A stretch of DNA of 38,929 bases from Candidatus Kaiserbacteria bacterium RIFCSPLOWO2_12_FULL_50_10 (GTDB lineage Bacteria > Patescibacteriota > Minisyncoccia > Phycocordibacterales > UBA918): NCBI GenBank assembly GCA_001783515.1, contig MFMN01000016.1:1-38929 (forward strand), given 5' to 3'. This document shows, in pieces, positions 5,464 to 38,929 of this stretch; within the stretch, counting starts at the first letter, position 1, and each line of letters opens with the position of its first letter. The notes under the pieces are model-generated. The model ran no database searches, was not told the origin of the DNA, and saw only the letters and a program-made list of their open reading frames with translations. The position numbers and the translations under genes were made by a program.

Positions 5464-6297
5464 CTATTCACAAAAGACAACTTCGTCTTCGGGGATTTCT
5501 AGATGCTTTGCGAAGATTTCTTGCGCGGTTTGTTTGTCACCAAGGCGGTCGATGAGTTTATGTTCGAGCGCAAGACTTCCTGGCATGCTCGAGCCGTCGG
5601 CGAGTGCGGCGACTTCGGTGATGCTGAGCTCGCGATTTTCGGCAACGAGCGCGACGAAGTGGTCGTGATAGATTTTGAGGTCTCGCTCGAGGAGTGCTCG
5701 TTCGTCAGTCGTGAGTGGTTTGTTGGGGCTGCCGTAGTCTTTGTAGATTGCCGAGGTAAGCGGCACATAGCGCAAGCCGTCTTGTTCATTTTGCGCAACG
5801 TTCTCAAGATACGACATGGTGACGCCGATACTGCCGACATCAGAAAATGGTGACGCAAGAATCATATCTGCCGCAGAGGCGACAAGGTAGCCTGCGGACG
5901 TGCCGATTTCGCGGATAAGTGCAATGGTCGGAAGTTCAGAATTTTTAATGGCCGATGCGATAATTTCTGCGGCAACAGGAGTGCCTCCTGGTGAGTCGAT
6001 TTGAAGGAGAATGCCTGCAATCGCGGGGTCGCTCGCGGCGAGCGCAATATCCGCAACGACGCTGTCGGCCCCTACAAACTCACCAACGGTTTCTTCGGGC
6101 GTGTATCCGATACCGATTTCACCCATCACGGGTATCACTGCAATGTTGCATGATCCATCACTCACAAGCGGCGCCTCTGCGTAGTAGCCATTCCATTCAT
6201 CATTCCAATTACCCCAAATAATGAGCGAGGTAGAAAAGAGTGCAAGAAACAATATTGAGAGGCCGAGCGTCCAGCCGATTTTTTCAAACGTAGTCAT
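5464..6297 (-). CDS. sppA: S49 family signal peptide peptidase (SppA-like)
   Basis: IDSPGGTPVAAEIIASAIK...GTSAGYLVASAADMILASPFSDVGSIGV; N-terminal TM. Start set at ATG 6297, 6 nt after TATACT. Confidence 0.85.
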   Translation of the reverse strand: MTTFEKIGWTLGLSILFLALFSTSLIIWGNWNDEWNGYYAEAPLVSDGSCNIAVIPVMGEIGIGYTPEETVGEFVGADSVVADIALAASDPAIAGILLQIDSPGGTPVAAEIIASAIKNSELPTIALIREIGTSAGYLVASAADMILASPFSDVGSIGVTMSYLENVAQNEQDGLRYVPLTSAIYKDYGSPNKPLTTDERALLERDLKIYHDHFVALVAENRELSITEVAALADGSSMPGSLALEHKLIDRLGDKQTAQEIFAKHLEIPEDEVVFCE

Positions 6298-6375
6298 GCG
6301 TGTAGTATATACGATTATCTGAAAAAGATTGTGCTGCATCTTGTGGATATCGCCGCGGAGCCGCGCGCTCTCTCG

Positions 6376-15790: not shown

Positions 15791-16372
15791 TTATCTCTCT
15801 AGCATTTCCCTCACCACACGCTCGATTGCGCGCTCGGCGGCGGCGACTTCGCCGTCTTTATTAACGATGACGGCGTCGGCTTCGGGTTTGATTGCCATTT
15901 CGATATCGTAGCTTTCTTTACGAAGGGCGAGCTCCTCTTCGCTCATGGGTGCACGACCGAGAATGCGACGCTTGAGATGATCCCAGTCACCGCCGTCAAT
16001 AAATATGAGGCGGTACTGATCGTGCGGAAGTTTTGCTTTGATTTGCTGGTAGCCTTTATGCTCGAGTTCACGGAAGAGAATCTTCCCGTTTTCGAGCGCA
16101 TCTTGCACGGCATCTAGCGGAATACCATAATAATTTGCCCCGTATTCTGCCCACTCAATAAACTTCCCCGCGTCGCGCAGTGCTTCAAACTCCTCGCGCG
16201 AAACATAGTGATAGGTTTTGCCGGGGACTTCGCCGGGGCGAGGCGCGCGACTGGTGTACGAGGTTACAAACGAAAGCTGGTCGCCAAACACTTTTTCAAC
16301 ATGCGCCTTGAGCGTATTCTTCCCAGAGCCCGACGGCCCCATGAGGAGTATGAGCATACCTTTTTTCTGCAT
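15791..16372 (-). CDS. gmk: Guanylate kinase
   Basis: LILLMGPSGSGKNTLKAHV, SYTSRAPRPGEVPGKTYHYVSREEFE, FIEWAEYGANYYG. Confidence 0.93.
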   Translation of the reverse strand: MQKKGMLILLMGPSGSGKNTLKAHVEKVFGDQLSFVTSYTSRAPRPGEVPGKTYHYVSREEFEALRDAGKFIEWAEYGANYYGIPLDAVQDALENGKILFRELEHKGYQQIKAKLPHDQYRLIFIDGGDWDHLKRRILGRAPMSEEELALRKESYDIEMAIKPEADAVIVNKDGEVAAAERAIERVVREMLER

Positions 16373-16378
16373 AGTCGC

Positions 16379-16437
16379 AGTATACCCAGGAAAAAGAGCG
16401 ATGCAATTTTGCAAACGCCCAAAAATGTTGCTACCAT
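16379..16437. promoter_or_regulatory. Back-to-back divergent promoters for gmk (-) and ung (+)
   Basis: gmk: TTGCAT-16-TATACT-6-ATG (minus). ung: TTGCAA (16409-16414)-17-TACCAT (16432-16437)-6-ATG. The -35 boxes are separated by 2 nt in TGCAATTTTGCA. Confidence 0.75.
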
Positions 16438-20407: not shown

Positions 20408-21094
20408 ATGGAGCAACGCCTTATCCGTACTCTTACCGTAATTCTGCTCATGTTTGGCATGAACCAAGTATACGCAGGCTTTTTAAAATTTCCCGTTCCA
20501 CAATCTGGATATACCCCATCGACCGTACCTATTACGGCAGTTATGGACCATGACTCTGACTGGAATAAGATTAAAACCCGCACAGGAGAAACTGGATCTT
20601 ATGCAAACGGATGTCTTGCGTACGTTAGCGGAAATGTGAGTTGCACCTCGAGTAACACAAGTTATCCTTGGGCATACAAGCGGCCTGGTGGCGCAGCGTG
20701 GTCAACTCCCGGAATAAACTATATTGACCTTGCTCCCGGTAACAATGTGTGGATGTGGTACGACAATCACCATGGCTACGATTTTTCAGTTAGCCAATGG
20801 CTACCCGTTGTTTCTGCTGAGTCGGGAACGGTAACTGATATCAACACCAGCTGGGGCCAGGTGACAATCACACACAGCAACGGGTATCGAACCACCTATA
20901 CACATATGTATCTCAACTTACCCATGCCACAAACGGTGTCAAAAGGACAGCATATCGGCTGGGTCTCTAACGTCGCACCATCATCGCAAGCGGTTGGCGT
21001 CCATTTACACTTTGTGGTTGAACGTAATACCGGCGGACACTGGTATCAAGTTGATCCGTATGGCGGCAGCGGTGAGCCTGTGCTTTGGGACTAA
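20408..21094 (+). CDS. Secreted M23-family metallopeptidase
   Basis: Signal peptide; HHGYDFSV, VSAESGTVTDI, HMYLNLPMPQTVSKGQHIGWV, VGVHLHFVVE. SD AGGAG before ATG 20408. Confidence 0.8.
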   Translation: MEQRLIRTLTVILLMFGMNQVYAGFLKFPVPQSGYTPSTVPITAVMDHDSDWNKIKTRTGETGSYANGCLAYVSGNVSCTSSNTSYPWAYKRPGGAAWSTPGINYIDLAPGNNVWMWYDNHHGYDFSVSQWLPVVSAESGTVTDINTSWGQVTITHSNGYRTTYTHMYLNLPMPQTVSKGQHIGWVSNVAPSSQAVGVHLHFVVERNTGGHWYQVDPYGGSGEPVLWD

Positions 21095-21789: not shown

Positions 21790-23733
21790 CTAGATATTTG
21801 TTGGATCAGCAGCTTCTTCTTTCGGGTAGGCGTTTTTGATTTCCACGCCTTCTCTTTTGAGAATTGCTTCGTAGTCATCGCGTTCGAGAGTTTCTAGTTC
21901 GATGAGTTTCTCGGCGACAGCGTCGAGAGCTTTGCGATGTACCGTGAGCGCTTCACGAGCGCGGTCTTCTGCGGTGCGCATAATGCGGGTGACTTCTTCG
22001 TCGATTTCGCGGGCTTTTTCGGTTGAATAGCCTCGGTCTTCAGAGATGCCACCGCCAATAAGGCGTCCGCCTGTCCCCTCAAGGGCTACAGGGCCGAACT
22101 TTTCGGACATGCCGAAGCGTACCACCATGTCACGCGCGAGATTTGTCGCAACTTGGAGGTCATTCGATGGACCAGTCGTAAGGTCGTCGAAAATCATAAT
22201 CTCTGCAACATAGCCGCCGAGTGACATTGCGATGTCGTCGAGGAACTCTTTGCGTGACTGCATTTTACGGTCGGTGTCAGGGAGCTTGAGGGTATAGCCA
22301 GCCGCACGTCCGCGAGAAATGATAGAAATCTTCTGGACCGGGTCGGCGTATGGAAGCACGGACGCGACGAGCGCATGCCCCGCTTCGTGGTACGCGGTGA
22401 TTTTACGCTCTTCCTTTGTGAGCAAGTGACTCTTGCGCTCAGGGCCGAGCATGACTTTTTCAATCGAGCGAATCGCGTCGAACTGCGCGACTTCTTTACG
22501 GCCTTCGCGTGCGGCGAGAATTGCGGCTTCATTCATAAGCGACGCAAGGTCGGCACCTGAAAATCCTGGTGTACGCTGCGCGATAATCTCTAGGTTCACG
22601 TCTGCCGTGAGCGGCTTCTTGCGTGCGTGGATTTTGAGGATTTCTAGACGGTCGTCGCGGTCAGGAAGGTCGATGGTGACCCGGCGGTCGAAGCGCCCCG
22701 GGCGCATAAGTGCGGAGTCAATAACGTCAGGGCGGTTCGTTGCCGCGATAACAATGAGTTTTTCGGTTGGCTCGAAGCCGTCCATTTCGGTGAGGATTTG
22801 GTTGAGTGTTTGTTCACGTTCATCGTTGCCGCCACCCATGCCACTGCCGCGGGCGCGACCGACAGCGTCGATTTCGTCGATGAAAATAATAGCAGGCGCC
22901 ATTTTCTTTGCAGTTTGGAAGAGGTCACGCACACGCGATGCACCAACACCCACAAACATCTCAACGAATTCAGAGCCAGAAATCGAGAAGAACGGCACGT
23001 TCGCTTCACCCGCAATTGCGCGTGCGAGCAGTGTCTTTCCCGTACCTGGTGACCCCATCATCATCACACCCTTTGGCACCGCTGCGCCAATGTCGGTGAA
23101 TTTCTTTGGATTCTTGAGGAAGTCGACGATTTCTTCGAGTTCGATTTTTGCTTCTTTGGCACCCGCAACGTCCTTAAACGTCACTTTCTGCTGTTCGTCG
23201 TCAGGGTGAATCATGCGTGCTTTTGACGCGCCGAAGTTCAGCGCTTGCACGCCCATACCCTTCATCGAGCGTGAGAAGAAGAATACGATAAAGCCAAGGA
23301 GAAGGAGCGGGAACAAGAACGGCGAAAGGACGCCGAGCCAATAGGCGAGCCCTGTTTCCTCTTTTACTTCAAGCGCAATCGCGCGGAGCTCTTCGGCGGT
23401 GACGCCGAGATTTACGAGCGTTTCGGTAATCGGCGTTGCGTAGCCTTCTTTTTTCGCAATACCTACCGGACGCGCTTCGTCACGATGATGCACTTCGACA
23501 GTATCGCCGCGCACCACAAGTTCCTTTACGTCACCTGCATGAATTGCTTCTGCAACCTTTGTAAGAGTCGTGTCTTCCGTGTTTTTCTTGTCGGTACCGT
23601 ACCCGTAGAGGAGCGTGAACATCATGAGTGACAACACGCCGACGGTAAGGATATTCCAGAGGCTGCTTGGCTGCTGCTTTTTGCGATGCTTCGGCACGGG
23701 CTTCTTCGGTGCCTTTTTTCCTTGTTCTTTCAT
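21790..23733 (-). CDS. ftsH: ATP-dependent zinc metalloprotease FtsH
   Basis: [59 protein letters not shown]. Start at ATG 23733. Confidence 0.97.
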
Positions 23734-23806
23734 ATCGCCAGTATACGAATGGTACTGCGAATGTCCAGCGCAAATCTCTCGAAAACCTGCATGGAGAACT
23801 ATGCGG

Positions 23807-30355: not shown

Positions 30356-32731
30356 CTACTGAGGACTCTTAGCTCGTGGCGTCCATGTCCAGGCGTCGAT
30401 TTCTTCGGGGTCGGTGCCGTTTTGGATGATGTAGGCGCGGTGGTCAGTAAGCTTTTTGCGATACTGCTTGATGAGTTCGTCTGCCTTGGTGCGATCGACA
30501 ACTCCTGCCTGCACCATTTCTTCCCAAACTTCTATGGCGAGGCTATAGCGGTCGGTGTTGTTGCGGATATGCATGTCGAACGGGGTTGTCGTTGAACCGT
30601 TTTCTTCGTAGCCGTGGACTAAGAAGCGTCGTCCACTCCCGTTGCAGGCGTACTCAAAGAGCATTTGCTTGAGTGTTTGTGGGTAGCCATGGAAGTTGAA
30701 AAGGACTGGCTTGTCATGCGTGAAATAGTCGTTGAAATCTACATGAGGCATAACACATTCGCCGGAGCCGATACCGAGCGCGTTGAGCGTGATAATGTTC
30801 ACAAAACGTATGCGTACATTTGGTGTTTCTTGCTTCACAATGTCGAGTGCTGCGAGACCTTCCTTGGTGAGGTAATCGCCGATGGTTGCGATGACAATGT
30901 CGGGGCGGTCGTCGGAGGCGAAGTCCCACGTCATAATGCCTGCGTCGACTGCTTTCTGCGCTTCCGCGGGCGTGAGCCAGCGTGGTTCAAGGGTCTTCCC
31001 TGCGGTGATGATGTTGATTTCTTGTGTCGACGCGAGACATCGCCGCAGGCACGCGAGCGTTGTGTTGCCGTCGGGTGGGTAGTAAGCATTCACGAAGCAG
31101 CCTGGGCGGTTGAGCATGTCGTCGACGAAGCCGGGGTTTTGGTGTGAGAATCCGTTATGGTCTTGTCGCCAGCCGGACGAGGTGAGGATATAGTTGAGCG
31201 ACGGAACTTTGCCACGCCACGAGACGCTGCGGGCGATTTTCAAAAACTTTGCATATTGGTCAACCATCGAAACGACGATTTGAATGAATGCTTCGTAGGA
31301 GGCGAAGATGCCATGGCGCCCCGTGAGTACATAGCCCATGTACATGCCTTGGAGGGTGTGCTCGGAGAGCATTTCCATGACTCTGCCGTTTGGTGCAAGG
31401 TCTTTATCCCAACTTTCGCGCTTCCCTACCCATGCACGCGCGGTTTTGGTAAATACATCGTCAAGTTTGTTTGAATAAGTTTCATCAGGAGAAAAGAGAC
31501 GGAAGTTTTTTGCGTCGTTATTGCGTGCAAAGACTTCGGTGAGGTACGCACCTGCGCGACGCATTGATGATGAGCCTACTGTTCCTGGAACAGTCGCATC
31601 TTCGGTGAACGTGGCGATGTCGGGAAGTTCGAGTGGCGTATATGCGGGCGAGCCGCCACGCGCATGTTTACTTGCGCCCATGCGAAGTTCGGCAGGCGGA
31701 ATTATCGCGCGAATATCTTCGGCGAATGCGCCCTTGGTAAAGAGCTCGGGGAAATTATATGAGCGAAGCCAGGTTTCGAGCGCGCTAAGATGTGCTGGAT
31801 TTGTTGCTGCTTCTTTTGCAATGACTTGGTGCGACAAATGATTTCCTTCGAGCTTTTCGCCGTCGAGCTCAGCAATACCTGTCCAGCCTTTGGGTGTGCG
31901 CAAGATAATCATTGGCCATTTGGGCACTTCTACTACTTGTACTTCGCTACTTCTCGCAGCGTCTTGGATTGCATGAATCTGCACATGCGCCGCCTTAAGC
32001 GTTGCTTGCATCACGGCGTATACGTCGCGCGGATCTGACGCATCAACAATGTAGACTGTGTAGCCATAGCCGGTGAAGAGGTGGGCAAGTTCGGTATCGG
32101 TCATTCGCCCGTAGATTGTCGGGCCAGAAATTTTGTAGCCGTTCACATGCACAATCGGGAGCACAGCGCCTGAAGTTTTTGGGTCAACGAATTTATTACA
32201 GTGCCACGCGGTTGCCGTTGGACCTGTTTCTGCTTCGCCGTCACCGATGAGTACAGCCGTTACGAGGTTGGGGTTATCAAGCACCGTGCCATAAGCGGTT
32301 GCGAGCGCATAGCCGAGTTCGCCACCCTCAAGAATAACGCCAGGTGCCTCAGGGTTGCTGTGTGAAGGATACCCATACGGCCAGCTGAAATTTTTACACA
32401 AGTGTGCAATACCTTCTGCAGACACCGGAAGGTTTACATCGACATCGCCAAGCGAACCTTCAAGGAAAAGGTTTGCTTGGAGCGCAGGAAATCCATGTCC
32501 CGGGCCGAGCACAAACATCATTTCTTGCTCTTTTTCCGTAATGAGCGCGTTGAGTTGTGCATAGGTAAAATTAATCCCCGGGCACGTTCCCCAGTGCCCT
32601 AAAAGGCGCGGCTTAATGTCAGTGTGCGCAAGCGGCTTTTCGAGCAGCGTATTGTCGCGCAAATAAATCTGCGCCGCAGCAAGATAGTTCGTCGCACGAA
32701 CGTACCGTTTGAGAGCATCGATAGTTGTCAT
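30356..32731 (-). CDS. xfp: Phosphoketolase (Xfp family)
   Basis: LLGHWGTCPGINFTYAQLNALI, VLGPGHGFPALQANLFLEGS, LIGDGEAETGPTATAWH, NGYKISGPTIYGR, SSGWRQDHNGFSHQNPGFVD. Confidence 0.97.
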   Translation of the reverse strand: MTTIDALKRYVRATNYLAAAQIYLRDNTLLEKPLAHTDIKPRLLGHWGTCPGINFTYAQLNALITEKEQEMMFVLGPGHGFPALQANLFLEGSLGDVDVNLPVSAEGIAHLCKNFSWPYGYPSHSNPEAPGVILEGGELGYALATAYGTVLDNPNLVTAVLIGDGEAETGPTATAWHCNKFVDPKTSGAVLPIVHVNGYKISGPTIYGRMTDTELAHLFTGYGYTVYIVDASDPRDVYAVMQATLKAAHVQIHAIQDAARSSEVQVVEVPKWPMIILRTPKGWTGIAELDGEKLEGNHLSHQVIAKEAATNPAHLSALETWLRSYNFPELFTKGAFAEDIRAIIPPAELRMGASKHARGGSPAYTPLELPDIATFTEDATVPGTVGSSSMRRAGAYLTEVFARNNDAKNFRLFSPDETYSNKLDDVFTKTARAWVGKRESWDKDLAPNGRVMEMLSEHTLQGMYMGYVLTGRHGIFASYEAFIQIVVSMVDQYAKFLKIARSVSWRGKVPSLNYILTSSGWRQDHNGFSHQNPGFVDDMLNRPGCFVNAYYPPDGNTTLACLRRCLASTQEINIITAGKTLEPRWLTPAEAQKAVDAGIMTWDFASDDRPDIVIATIGDYLTKEGLAALDIVKQETPNVRIRFVNIITLNALGIGSGECVMPHVDFNDYFTHDKPVLFNFHGYPQTLKQMLFEYACNGSGRRFLVHGYEENGSTTTPFDMHIRNNTDRYSLAIEVWEEMVQAGVVDRTKADELIKQYRKKLTDHRAYIIQNGTDPEEIDAWTWTPRAKSPQ

Positions 32732-32805
32732 GCGCGCAGTATACCACCAAGCGCCAATATCAGTACAAAAAAACCGCGAGCGCTATCTCGTAGTTTTTTT
32801 GGAAC

Positions 32806-36214: not shown

Positions 36215-36712
36215 TTAGTTGACCGTGAACGGTGTCATAACGCCCTCAACCATTTCGAATGTTGTTTCGAAGTCAGTTGCTTGTGTGTAGAAGACTACGG
36301 CGTAGCTCTTGCCTGCTTCGGTTGCGCGGAAGAGATCAACCTTTGCGGGGTACCTTCCGTCGCTCTGTGAGTAGCGTGATGCGCCGAGAACATTGCCGAG
36401 TGCGCCGTCAGTGTAGTCGCGGATGGCAACCCAGCCGTCAGTTGCGGGATACTCAGTAACGGTAACTGCTACTGAGGTACCTGCGGTGACATCGCCAGCT
36501 ACTGCAACCTTTCCTGCGCCAATAACTGGTGCGGCAGCTGTTGTTGTCGCGTCTGCGGCTGCAACTGCAGCAGCGCTCATGTCGGTTGCGCTTTTTGCAA
36601 CAGGTGCTGCTTCTTCAGCGGAGAAGACCCACACGAGGAGTCCGCCAATAAGGAGGCCTGCGACGAATGCAACGACGCTCTTCTGATAATCCTGATTTGT
36701 AAGTGTGTTCAT
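36215..36712 (-). CDS. Putative cell-surface protein with N-terminal TM
   Basis: VAFVAGLLIGGLLVWVFS anchor, Ala-rich linker, beta-rich domain. Confidence 0.6.
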   Translation of the reverse strand: MNTLTNQDYQKSVVAFVAGLLIGGLLVWVFSAEEAAPVAKSATDMSAAAVAAADATTTAAAPVIGAGKVAVAGDVTAGTSVAVTVTEYPATDGWVAIRDYTDGALGNVLGASRYSQSDGRYPAKVDLFRATEAGKSYAVVFYTQATDFETTFEMVEGVMTPFTVN

Positions 36713-36808: not shown

Positions 36809-38068
36809 TTATGTAATGCTCCCGAGGTAGGGGATGTCGAGCACTTTGTGGGAGTGAGGGATTTTTAGGAGCGGTGTGCCACCGCCGTCCTCTTCATGCC
36901 GCTGCGCGCGGAGGCTTGAGGCACGTTCGAGCGGGAGTCCTCCTTGTGCAAACATGAGCGAATCGACGACCGTATTGAGGGTGTCGCGCTTTTTTTGGGC
37001 TTCGTCTTCTTTGGTTGTGAAAAGTTTTTCTTGCGTTTCGTGCGCGAGCGCGCCATGGGTGCCGACATACACCGCGCGGTATTTTGTGCTGCGACGGAAT
37101 ATTGCTCGCAACTCTGTTTCGGCAAGGGACATAATCGTGCCAGCATCGTTTGATGGCGCAGGACACTTTACCGTGCGCGTAATAAGCGTATGCACATCGG
37201 GAAATGCTTTGTAGCCAATCGTCACGGCGTTTGTACGAGCATGTTGTGCGCGAAGTTTCCGGCAGACCCGCTCGACATTGCGCGAAAATTCGGTAAGAAG
37301 CGGTGTGAATTCCATGATTGGCTCGAGAAACGCTTGAATACTACTGACGCTCTGTGTTCCTTCGCGTGTTTCGAGCGCACGCACTGCGGTGCCGCGAAGT
37401 TCATACGCAAGCTCGACAAGCGGCTTATTGAAGCGGCGCGCTATTTCTGCTTGTTCGAGAACGAGGAGATTACCGATAGTGACAATCCCCTCTCCTGCAA
37501 GTTTCTCCTCAGTACGCCCGCCAATGCCTGGGACGTTACGAAGCGGAACATCATGGAGCACTTCAAGATGTTCTGGCGTCACTATCGTAAGCCCGCGCGG
37601 TTTTTTAAACCCTGAAGAGATTTTTGCAATCGTCATCGTTGGACCGACACCAATAGACACCGTGAGTCCAAGCTTTGTGCAAAGCTCCTCCTGAAGCGCT
37701 TCCGCAAACGCCCGTACCTCATGCCATGTTGTCACTGCCGAGACGTCCGCGAAGGTCTCGTCTATCGAACCTTCGGAGATATCGGACACATACCGCCGCA
37801 CGATATTCTTCATACGCTCTGAAAAAAGTTCATACTTGCGATAATCCGAAGCGAGCAGTGCAACCTGCGGAAACTGCCGCCGAAGCTCCGTCTCACTCAT
37901 CGGCCGCTTCACCCCGAGCGCCTTTGCCTCATACGAAATAGCCGTCACGATACCGCGCTCGCGCCCGACCGCTATCGGCTTCCCGCGCCACTGCATATTC
38001 GTCGACTGTTCGCACGACGCAAAAAACGCATCGCCGTCGACATGCATAAAAATTTTATTCGCTGCCAT
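36809..38068 (-). CDS. Y-family DNA polymerase (DinB/UmuC-like)
   Basis: IFMHVDGDAFFASCEQ, YRKYELFSERM, EGSIDETFADVS, SIGVGPTMTIAKISSGFKKP, VPGIGGRTEEKL. Confidence 0.93.
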   Translation of the reverse strand: MAANKIFMHVDGDAFFASCEQSTNMQWRGKPIAVGRERGIVTAISYEAKALGVKRPMSETELRRQFPQVALLASDYRKYELFSERMKNIVRRYVSDISEGSIDETFADVSAVTTWHEVRAFAEALQEELCTKLGLTVSIGVGPTMTIAKISSGFKKPRGLTIVTPEHLEVLHDVPLRNVPGIGGRTEEKLAGEGIVTIGNLLVLEQAEIARRFNKPLVELAYELRGTAVRALETREGTQSVSSIQAFLEPIMEFTPLLTEFSRNVERVCRKLRAQHARTNAVTIGYKAFPDVHTLITRTVKCPAPSNDAGTIMSLAETELRAIFRRSTKYRAVYVGTHGALAHETQEKLFTTKEDEAQKKRDTLNTVVDSLMFAQGGLPLERASSLRAQRHEEDGGGTPLLKIPHSHKVLDIPYLGSIT

Positions 38069-38411
38069 ACTTCCGAATACACGCGATTACCTTCCCTTCT
38101 ATATTGAGTGACTCCTGCGGCACAAGTTTTGGATACGCGTCATTCGCCGCTTCAAGATACTGCTCACCGCGACCATTCTTCCGCAAAAAACGCACCACGT
38201 AGTCGCCATCAATTTCTGCCACCACAATATCACCAGCACGCACCGTTCGTGTCCGCTGAGTTAAAAGAAAATCGCCGGGTGCAATCTGCGCATCAAGAAG
38301 CGCATCGCCGTCCATGGAGATAAGATACGTCGCATCAGGATCTGCCAAAAGCCACGCCTCGAGCGAACCAACATCACGTCCATCATCAATAGGTGACCCA
38401 AATCCTGCCAT
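38055..38411 (-). CDS. UmuD'-like S24-family protein lacking the Ser-Lys dyad
   Basis: AGFGSPIDD...PDATYLISMDGDALLDAQIAPGDFLL...AGDIVVAEIDGDYVVRFLR aligns to E. coli UmuD from the cleavage site; overlaps the polymerase ORF by 14 bp. Confidence 0.85.
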   Translation of the reverse strand: MAGFGSPIDDGRDVGSLEAWLLADPDATYLISMDGDALLDAQIAPGDFLLTQRTRTVRAGDIVVAEIDGDYVVRFLRKNGRGEQYLEAANDAYPKLVPQESLNIEGKVIACIRKYGSE

Positions 38412-38493
38412 CGCATGAGTATAGCATCACGCAGAGCATCGCACATCTTTCACATTCTTTGCATTCTATTTTTCAAACAGGTATACTGCGTGC

Positions 38494-38929
38494 ATGGAGA
38501 AGGTTGAACAACAGGCGTCGCCCTCGGCGCGCCGTGAGTCTTTTGGCGAAACCGTTCGTTTCGTTGCGACGGCAATTATTGCGATTGTACTCATTCGTAC
38601 CTTCCTTGCATCACCCTTCATTGTCGAAGGCGCATCGATGGACGCAACCTTCCACAACAGTGACTATCTCATCGTCGACAAACTCTCTTACCGCTTCGTA
38701 GAACCGCAGCGTGGTGACATTGTCGTCTTCCGCTATCCGTACAATCCATCGGTCCACCACATCAAGCGCATCATCGGCCTTCCCGGCGACACCGTCTCCG
38801 TGCAGAACGGCACCGTCACCATCTCAAATACCCAGTGGAAAAACGGCACCATTGCGGAACCCTATGTCCTCGAGGGTAACAACCTCGCCACAATGAACGA
38901 TACCCGCACACTCGGCGAAAACGAGTATT
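38494..38929 (+). CDS. lepB: Signal peptidase I, truncated by window end
   Basis: ATG 38494, 6 nt after TATACT; IRTFLASPFIVEGASMDATFHNSDYLIVDKLSYRF, RGDIVVFRYP, HIKRIIGLPGDTV. Confidence 0.92.
   Translation, partial: MEKVEQQASPSARRESFGETVRFVATAIIAIVLIRTFLASPFIVEGASMDATFHNSDYLIVDKLSYRFVEPQRGDIVVFRYPYNPSVHHIKRIIGLPGDTVSVQNGTVTISNTQWKNGTIAEPYVLEGNNLATMNDTRTLGENEY

Follow-up and report, generated by a model that had tools for sequence, protein, structure and literature searches.

UmuD normally requires self-cleavage before it switches on an error-prone polymerase. A UmuD' that is born processed is already known, the precedent being HumD of phage P1, whose record states functional complementation of UmuD'. 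The HumD family (NCBIfam NF051876) also includes N15 gp26, phiKO2 gp23 and HK140 gp28; the family has the processed start MGFPSP, and the N15, phiKO2 and HK140 homologues start at GFPSP and have an eroded Ser region. In E. coli Pol V (UmuD/UmuD'-UmuC-RecA), UmuD' binds mainly at the C-terminal tail of UmuC (PMC6511836), and in models of the complex its arm lies close to the active site (PMC11791011). In Acinetobacter, a genus without LexA, a single S24 protein, UmuDAb, joins repressor and UmuD features (PMC4807011, PMC11332147). No dead UmuD is described in the accessible part of the PolB2/UmuD' paper.

Here, we describe a locus in a window of 38,929 nucleotides (the whole stretch of DNA that was analyzed) from a Candidatus Kaiserbacteria genome, in which a 118-aa S24 protein is encoded next to a Y-family polymerase (Table 1). 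This protein is probably a headless, protease-dead member of the LexA type that, in the manner of UmuD', serves the adjacent polymerase as a constitutively processed small subunit. It resembles HumD in starting at the processed N-terminus and in the altered Ser region seen in several HumDs. However, HumD is a phage or plasmid gene of the true UmuD lineage, with no cognate polymerase beside it; it mostly keeps the Lys, and an SOS box is annotated in P1 and phiKO2. The likeness to Pol V includes the UmuD' fold and N-terminus, the position upstream of a Y-family polymerase and, in that polymerase, a clamp motif, a RecA-NT-like motif and a conserved tail, whereas the window system has no arm, dyad or proteolytic step, a polymerase of another subfamily and, most likely, LexA-type ancestry. 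The nearest systems in both the S24 and the polymerase trees are LexA-like HTH-S24 and Y-polymerase cassettes of the same order (e.g. L043-L045), which have the same gene order and polymerase subfamily but carry a wHTH, a cleavable linker, the Ser/Lys dyad and, in many cases, an SOS box, all four of which the 118-aa protein has lost. UmuDAb is described as the opposite direction, a UmuD that became a repressor, and keeps both head and self-cleavage. New in the present system are its LexA-type ancestry, a polymerase encoded alongside, the absence of both dyad residues and the fact that such losses recur.

Table 1. Features of the S24-polymerase locus and TATACT-N6-ATG sites in the window
Feature	Position	Strand	Remarks
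S24-fold UmuD'/LexA-CTD-like protein, 118 aa	38055..38411	-	ATG start, begins MAGFGSPIDDG
Retained N-terminal arm MAGFGSP	38391..38411	-	A/G-F of the ancestral cleavage site
Ala37, codon GCG	38301..38303	-	motif GDAL; UmuD Ser60 position by PDB alignment
Arg74, codon CGT	38190..38192	-	motif VVRFL; UmuD Lys97 position by PDB alignment
-10 element TATACT, leaderless promoter	38418..38423	-	extended (TGc); exactly 6 nt 5' of the ATG
Y-family polymerase, 419 aa	36809..38068	-	overlaps the S24 ORF by 14 bp
Polymerase catalytic D	38021-38038	-	DGDAFF
Polymerase catalytic DE	37754-37768	-	SIDET
Beta-clamp-binding-like motif	37019..37033	-	QEKLF; relatives QxDLFG
RecA-NT-like motif	36911..36994	-	partly degenerate (KFG to AQG); motif per PMC6511836
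Polymerase C-terminal tail TPLLKIPHSHKVLDIPYLGSIT	36812..36877	-	proposed S24-binding tail; class of S24-linked polymerases
TATACT-N6-ATG site	38409-38423	-	
TATACT-N6-ATG site	38482-38496	+	
TATACT-N6-ATG site	32729-32743	-	
TATACT-N6-ATG site	23731-23745	-	
TATACT-N6-ATG site	20458-20472	-	
TATACT-N6-ATG site	16370-16384	-	
TATACT-N6-ATG site	6295-6309	-	

The 118-aa protein matches Pfam S24 with 55 bits (cut-off 23.3) and is aligned by phmmer with UmuD' (1UMU, E=1e-11) from UmuD' residue 1. As in UmuD', the S24 beta fold begins at the equivalent of GFPSP and, as in HumD, the N-terminus is born processed, although the score against the HumD family model is 23.6 bits (cut-off 120). The sequence-only reading had placed the start at the equivalent of the UmuD cleavage site and had noted a TGA codon in frame at 38427-38429; both observations hold, so that the UmuD-type arm with its Cys/Ala-Gly site is absent and there is room for just five extra codons upstream. 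Alignment with the PDB structures of UmuD' and UmuD likewise bore out the proposed replacement of Ser60 by Ala and of Lys97 by Arg, and the self-cleavage dyad of UmuD and LexA is therefore missing. An alternative Ser/Lys pair elsewhere in the protein seems unlikely, as the sister species does not share Ser32. Proteolytic gating in cis is impossible for this protein. Profile searches detected neither the wHTH DNA-binding domain of LexA in the 118-aa protein nor a split-off HTH gene near its ORF. The AF2 model (pLDDT 73.6) matches LexA C-domains and UmuD', and its MAGFGSP arm is disordered, with low pLDDT.

Within the genus, the comparison involved one other genome, Candidatus Kaiserbacteria MFLE01000014.1 (G001, locus L033). 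Its S24 protein is 84% identical to that of the window, starts with MAGFGSP, carries GEAL and VVRFL and is encoded upstream of the same polymerase. Arm loss and the two substitutions, whose co-occurrence and polymerase linkage in relatives had been put forward as a check, are thus found together in the sister species, which has no intact arm or dyad that would point to a local error. For this single pair of species, the NG86 dN/dS ratio is about 0.14 for S24 (0.105/0.728, 117 codons) and 0.13 for the polymerase (0.155/1.17), and the identity of the S24 proteins exceeds that of the polymerases. Since the same armless A/R protein occurs in a congener and dN/dS is ~0.14, both a sequencing error and a pseudogene can be rejected. 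The armless start and the dyad loss have become fixed in both species compared, and the S24 gene is under purifying selection. Genes flanking the S24-polymerase pair differ between the two genomes, indicating that the two genes have stayed together as a unit. The 14-bp overlap reported earlier is real in the window but is not a general trait, being replaced in G001 by a gap of ~180 bp. The insert in this gap (L033 5355-5530) has terminal inverted repeats, GGATCCCTCCTGGATGACAAAT and ATTTGTCATCCAAGAGGGATCC, and resembles a small mobile repeat.

The 6-nt spacing between TATACT and the ATG is identical in the sister species, and the conserved TATACT-N6-ATG arrangement therefore places the start of the S24 transcript at the MAGFGSP ATG, which points to leaderless transcripts beginning at this codon, with no coding sequence upstream of it. 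An upstream ATG, considered as an alternative start in the sister species, overlaps the -10 element. The arrangement is found seven times in the window, against 0.1 expected, and six of the seven sites coincide, by coordinates, with ATGs that lie in frame with long ORFs, lepB and phosphoketolase among them; judging from these sequences, leaderless promoters look common in the window genome. The phosphoketolase (XFP) gene is complete (30356-32731, minus strand).

The partner polymerase has the IMS domain with the catalytic D and DE of the Y-family. Its top score is with DinB/Pol IV and not with UmuC, which makes its dependence on a small subunit less certain. It keeps the clamp-like QEKLF and the tail KVLDIPYLGSIT, and its RecA-NT-like motif is weak. 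The tail is of the IPYLG class, and the polymerase falls in a clade separate from UmuC, lacking the YTTxW-type UmuC tail that UmuD-linked polymerases carry. Across related genomes, in counts uncorrected for phylogeny, 36 of 38 polymerases with an IPxLG-type tail have an S24 gene upstream, and S24 linkage is seen in 2 of 25 members of the DLLFL tail class, a single clade related to the IPxLG polymerases. Members of the DLLFL clade (L197, L206, L209, L214 and others) end in DLDRDLLFL and have no upstream S24 gene; as their clade is nested among S24-linked polymerases, partner and tail were seemingly lost or replaced together. Phe follows the cleavage Gly in 44/49 polymerase-linked versus 27/61 unlinked HTH-S24 proteins (also a correlation uncorrected for phylogeny), and the window protein keeps this Phe despite being uncleavable. 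From the retained GF arm and the partner-specific tail, we infer that the 118-aa protein may bind the polymerase. Downstream of the polymerase (36215-36712, minus strand), a secreted-looking protein with a weak DUF7282 match is encoded.

Loss of the dyad recurs in related bacteria: it affects 7/57 polymerase-linked S24 proteins versus 0/61 unlinked HTH-S24 proteins (p=0.005, with kinship ignored, phylogeny uncorrected and groups set by hand). At least four lineages are involved, the starred branches forcing at least four changes each in the S24 tree and the polymerase tree. Further headless and/or dyad-dead polymerase-linked S24 proteins are found in G113 (starting with MGF, Lys to Arg), G103 (MRTGF, Ser to Gly), G300, G141 and G269 (Lys to Gly), as well as in the UmuD-class G012 and G013, and independent headless copies keep the GF neo-N-terminus. 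In G113, G103, G300 and G141, a perfect SOS box precedes the cassette, and another S24 gene of LexA size is present elsewhere; both are absent from G012, G013 and the window genome. Headless forms therefore vary in transcriptional control, occurring with or without LexA, but have the loss of proteolytic control in common. The UmuD-class S24 proteins of G012 and G013 (L242, L243) are ~100 aa long, read GDGP/GSGP where the Ser would be, lack a GFPSP arm and are encoded beside a polymerase with a UmuC tail in genomes without LexA, representing a second, separate decay.

The usual SOS box, GAACN4GTTC, lies upstream of 22/39 polymerase-linked and 10/54 unlinked HTH-S24 genes, near position -27 (shuffle maximum 4). 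It is absent upstream of the S24 genes of the window and of G001 and is not enriched in the window genome (16 boxes versus 18 for the control pattern). Profile searches of the window genome and G001 revealed neither a LexA S24 protein nor a LexA_DNA_bind match, of which the S24 result weighs more because the HTH profile has little power in this group. RecA is present in the window genome. A literature search on LexA in CPR returned no paper.

The sequence-only reading had the processed cofactor encoded directly, bypassing proteolysis, a proposal that stands as far as the start, the dead dyad, the linkage and the purifying selection are concerned but not in the UmuD ancestry that it assumed. 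The nearest relatives, from the same order, are not UmuDs with a 24-aa arm but LexA-like proteins of ~190 aa, in which a wHTH is joined by a linker (LGLVEAG/FPSP) to an S24 domain with intact Ser/Lys; they are mostly encoded immediately upstream of a Y-polymerase of the same subfamily as that of the window, and one member of the f86 HTH-S24 group passes the NCBIfam LexA cut-off. In the S24 tree, the window protein and its G001 counterpart join the f86 HTH-S24 and polymerase cassettes in a starred clade (98/94), apart from the UmuDs (100/99), and the polymerase tree independently joins the pair to the same cassettes (98). Placement among such cassettes in both trees thus argues for a headless, dyad-dead LexA-type protein rather than an armless UmuD, the polymerase tree being the stronger argument, and what was lost is most likely the DNA-binding head and the protease; SOS control of transcription, by SOS box and LexA, is missing as well. 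A true short-arm UmuD that lost its arm and dyad, with a LexA likeness due to divergence or long-branch effects, is unlikely, although MAGFGSP does align with the first residue of UmuD', a UmuD grouping of the S24 domain survives the AU test (p=0.18), the PRK10276 (UmuD) score of the protein is slightly above that of lexA, albeit below the cut-off, and other genera of the family do have short-arm UmuDs. These UmuDs accompany another polymerase class, the YTTxW UmuC, from which the HTH-S24-linked, IPYLG-tailed polymerase of the window is far removed.

The loss of every repressor feature would also be expected of a decaying remnant kept solely for translational coupling with the polymerase, which the overlap or adjacency of the genes could provide. 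We consider this highly improbable, as the S24 gene has a dN/dS of about 0.14 over its 117 codons and its protein is better conserved than the polymerase, the sister species lost the overlap yet conserved the protein, and independent headless copies retained the GF neo-N-terminus. The least probable of the alternatives is an antagonist of the RecA or LexA type, i.e. a dominant-negative partner or a RecA-filament binder, instead of a polymerase subunit. The AF2 fold does match PDB 8GMT and 8GMS, in which S24 C-terminal domains bind RecA filaments, and RecA is available, but the window genome has no LexA to antagonize, and both the linkage and the tail class favor the polymerase as the partner; antagonism could be an additional role.

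If the protein is indeed a processed LexA-type subunit, its ancestor would most likely have been an autoregulated SOS repressor, with a wHTH, a cleavable VEAG/FPSP linker and an S24 Ser/Lys protease, whose gene lay directly before that of the polymerase. What is gone in this genus is the head, along with the dyad and the GAACN4GTTC operator, and no LexA remains; the S24 fold was retained, as were the GF arm left after cleavage and the C-terminal tail of the polymerase that is specific to the partner. The S24 domain would dimerize and bind the polymerase, its arm may reach the polymerase active site, as modeled for Pol V, and gating might now occur via RecA or clamp contacts instead of transcription or proteolysis. 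We give about even chances to a broader proposal, in which the polymerase-linked LexA-like proteins of the order are bifunctional: the intact protein would repress its own operon, and the C-terminal half released by RecA-stimulated cleavage would be a UmuD'-like subunit of the adjacent polymerase. The window genus and at least three other lineages would have kept only the second job, with the subunit made ready; here, where LexA and the SOS box are absent, neither transcription nor proteolysis would subject lesion bypass to SOS control.

If this is true, nature has repeatedly pulled apart the two roles of a LexA-type protein by removing head and protease, an argument for regarding the LexA-type C-terminal domain as a polymerase subunit by itself. 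This would also reveal a route from an SOS repressor to a constitutive TLS cofactor and make testable a mutagenic bypass free of both LexA control and RecA-triggered cleavage. Bacteria with reduced genomes, such as the Kaiserbacteria-type lineage with its tiny genome, would then have in the 118-aa protein a cellular equivalent of phage HumD that is linked to a polymerase.
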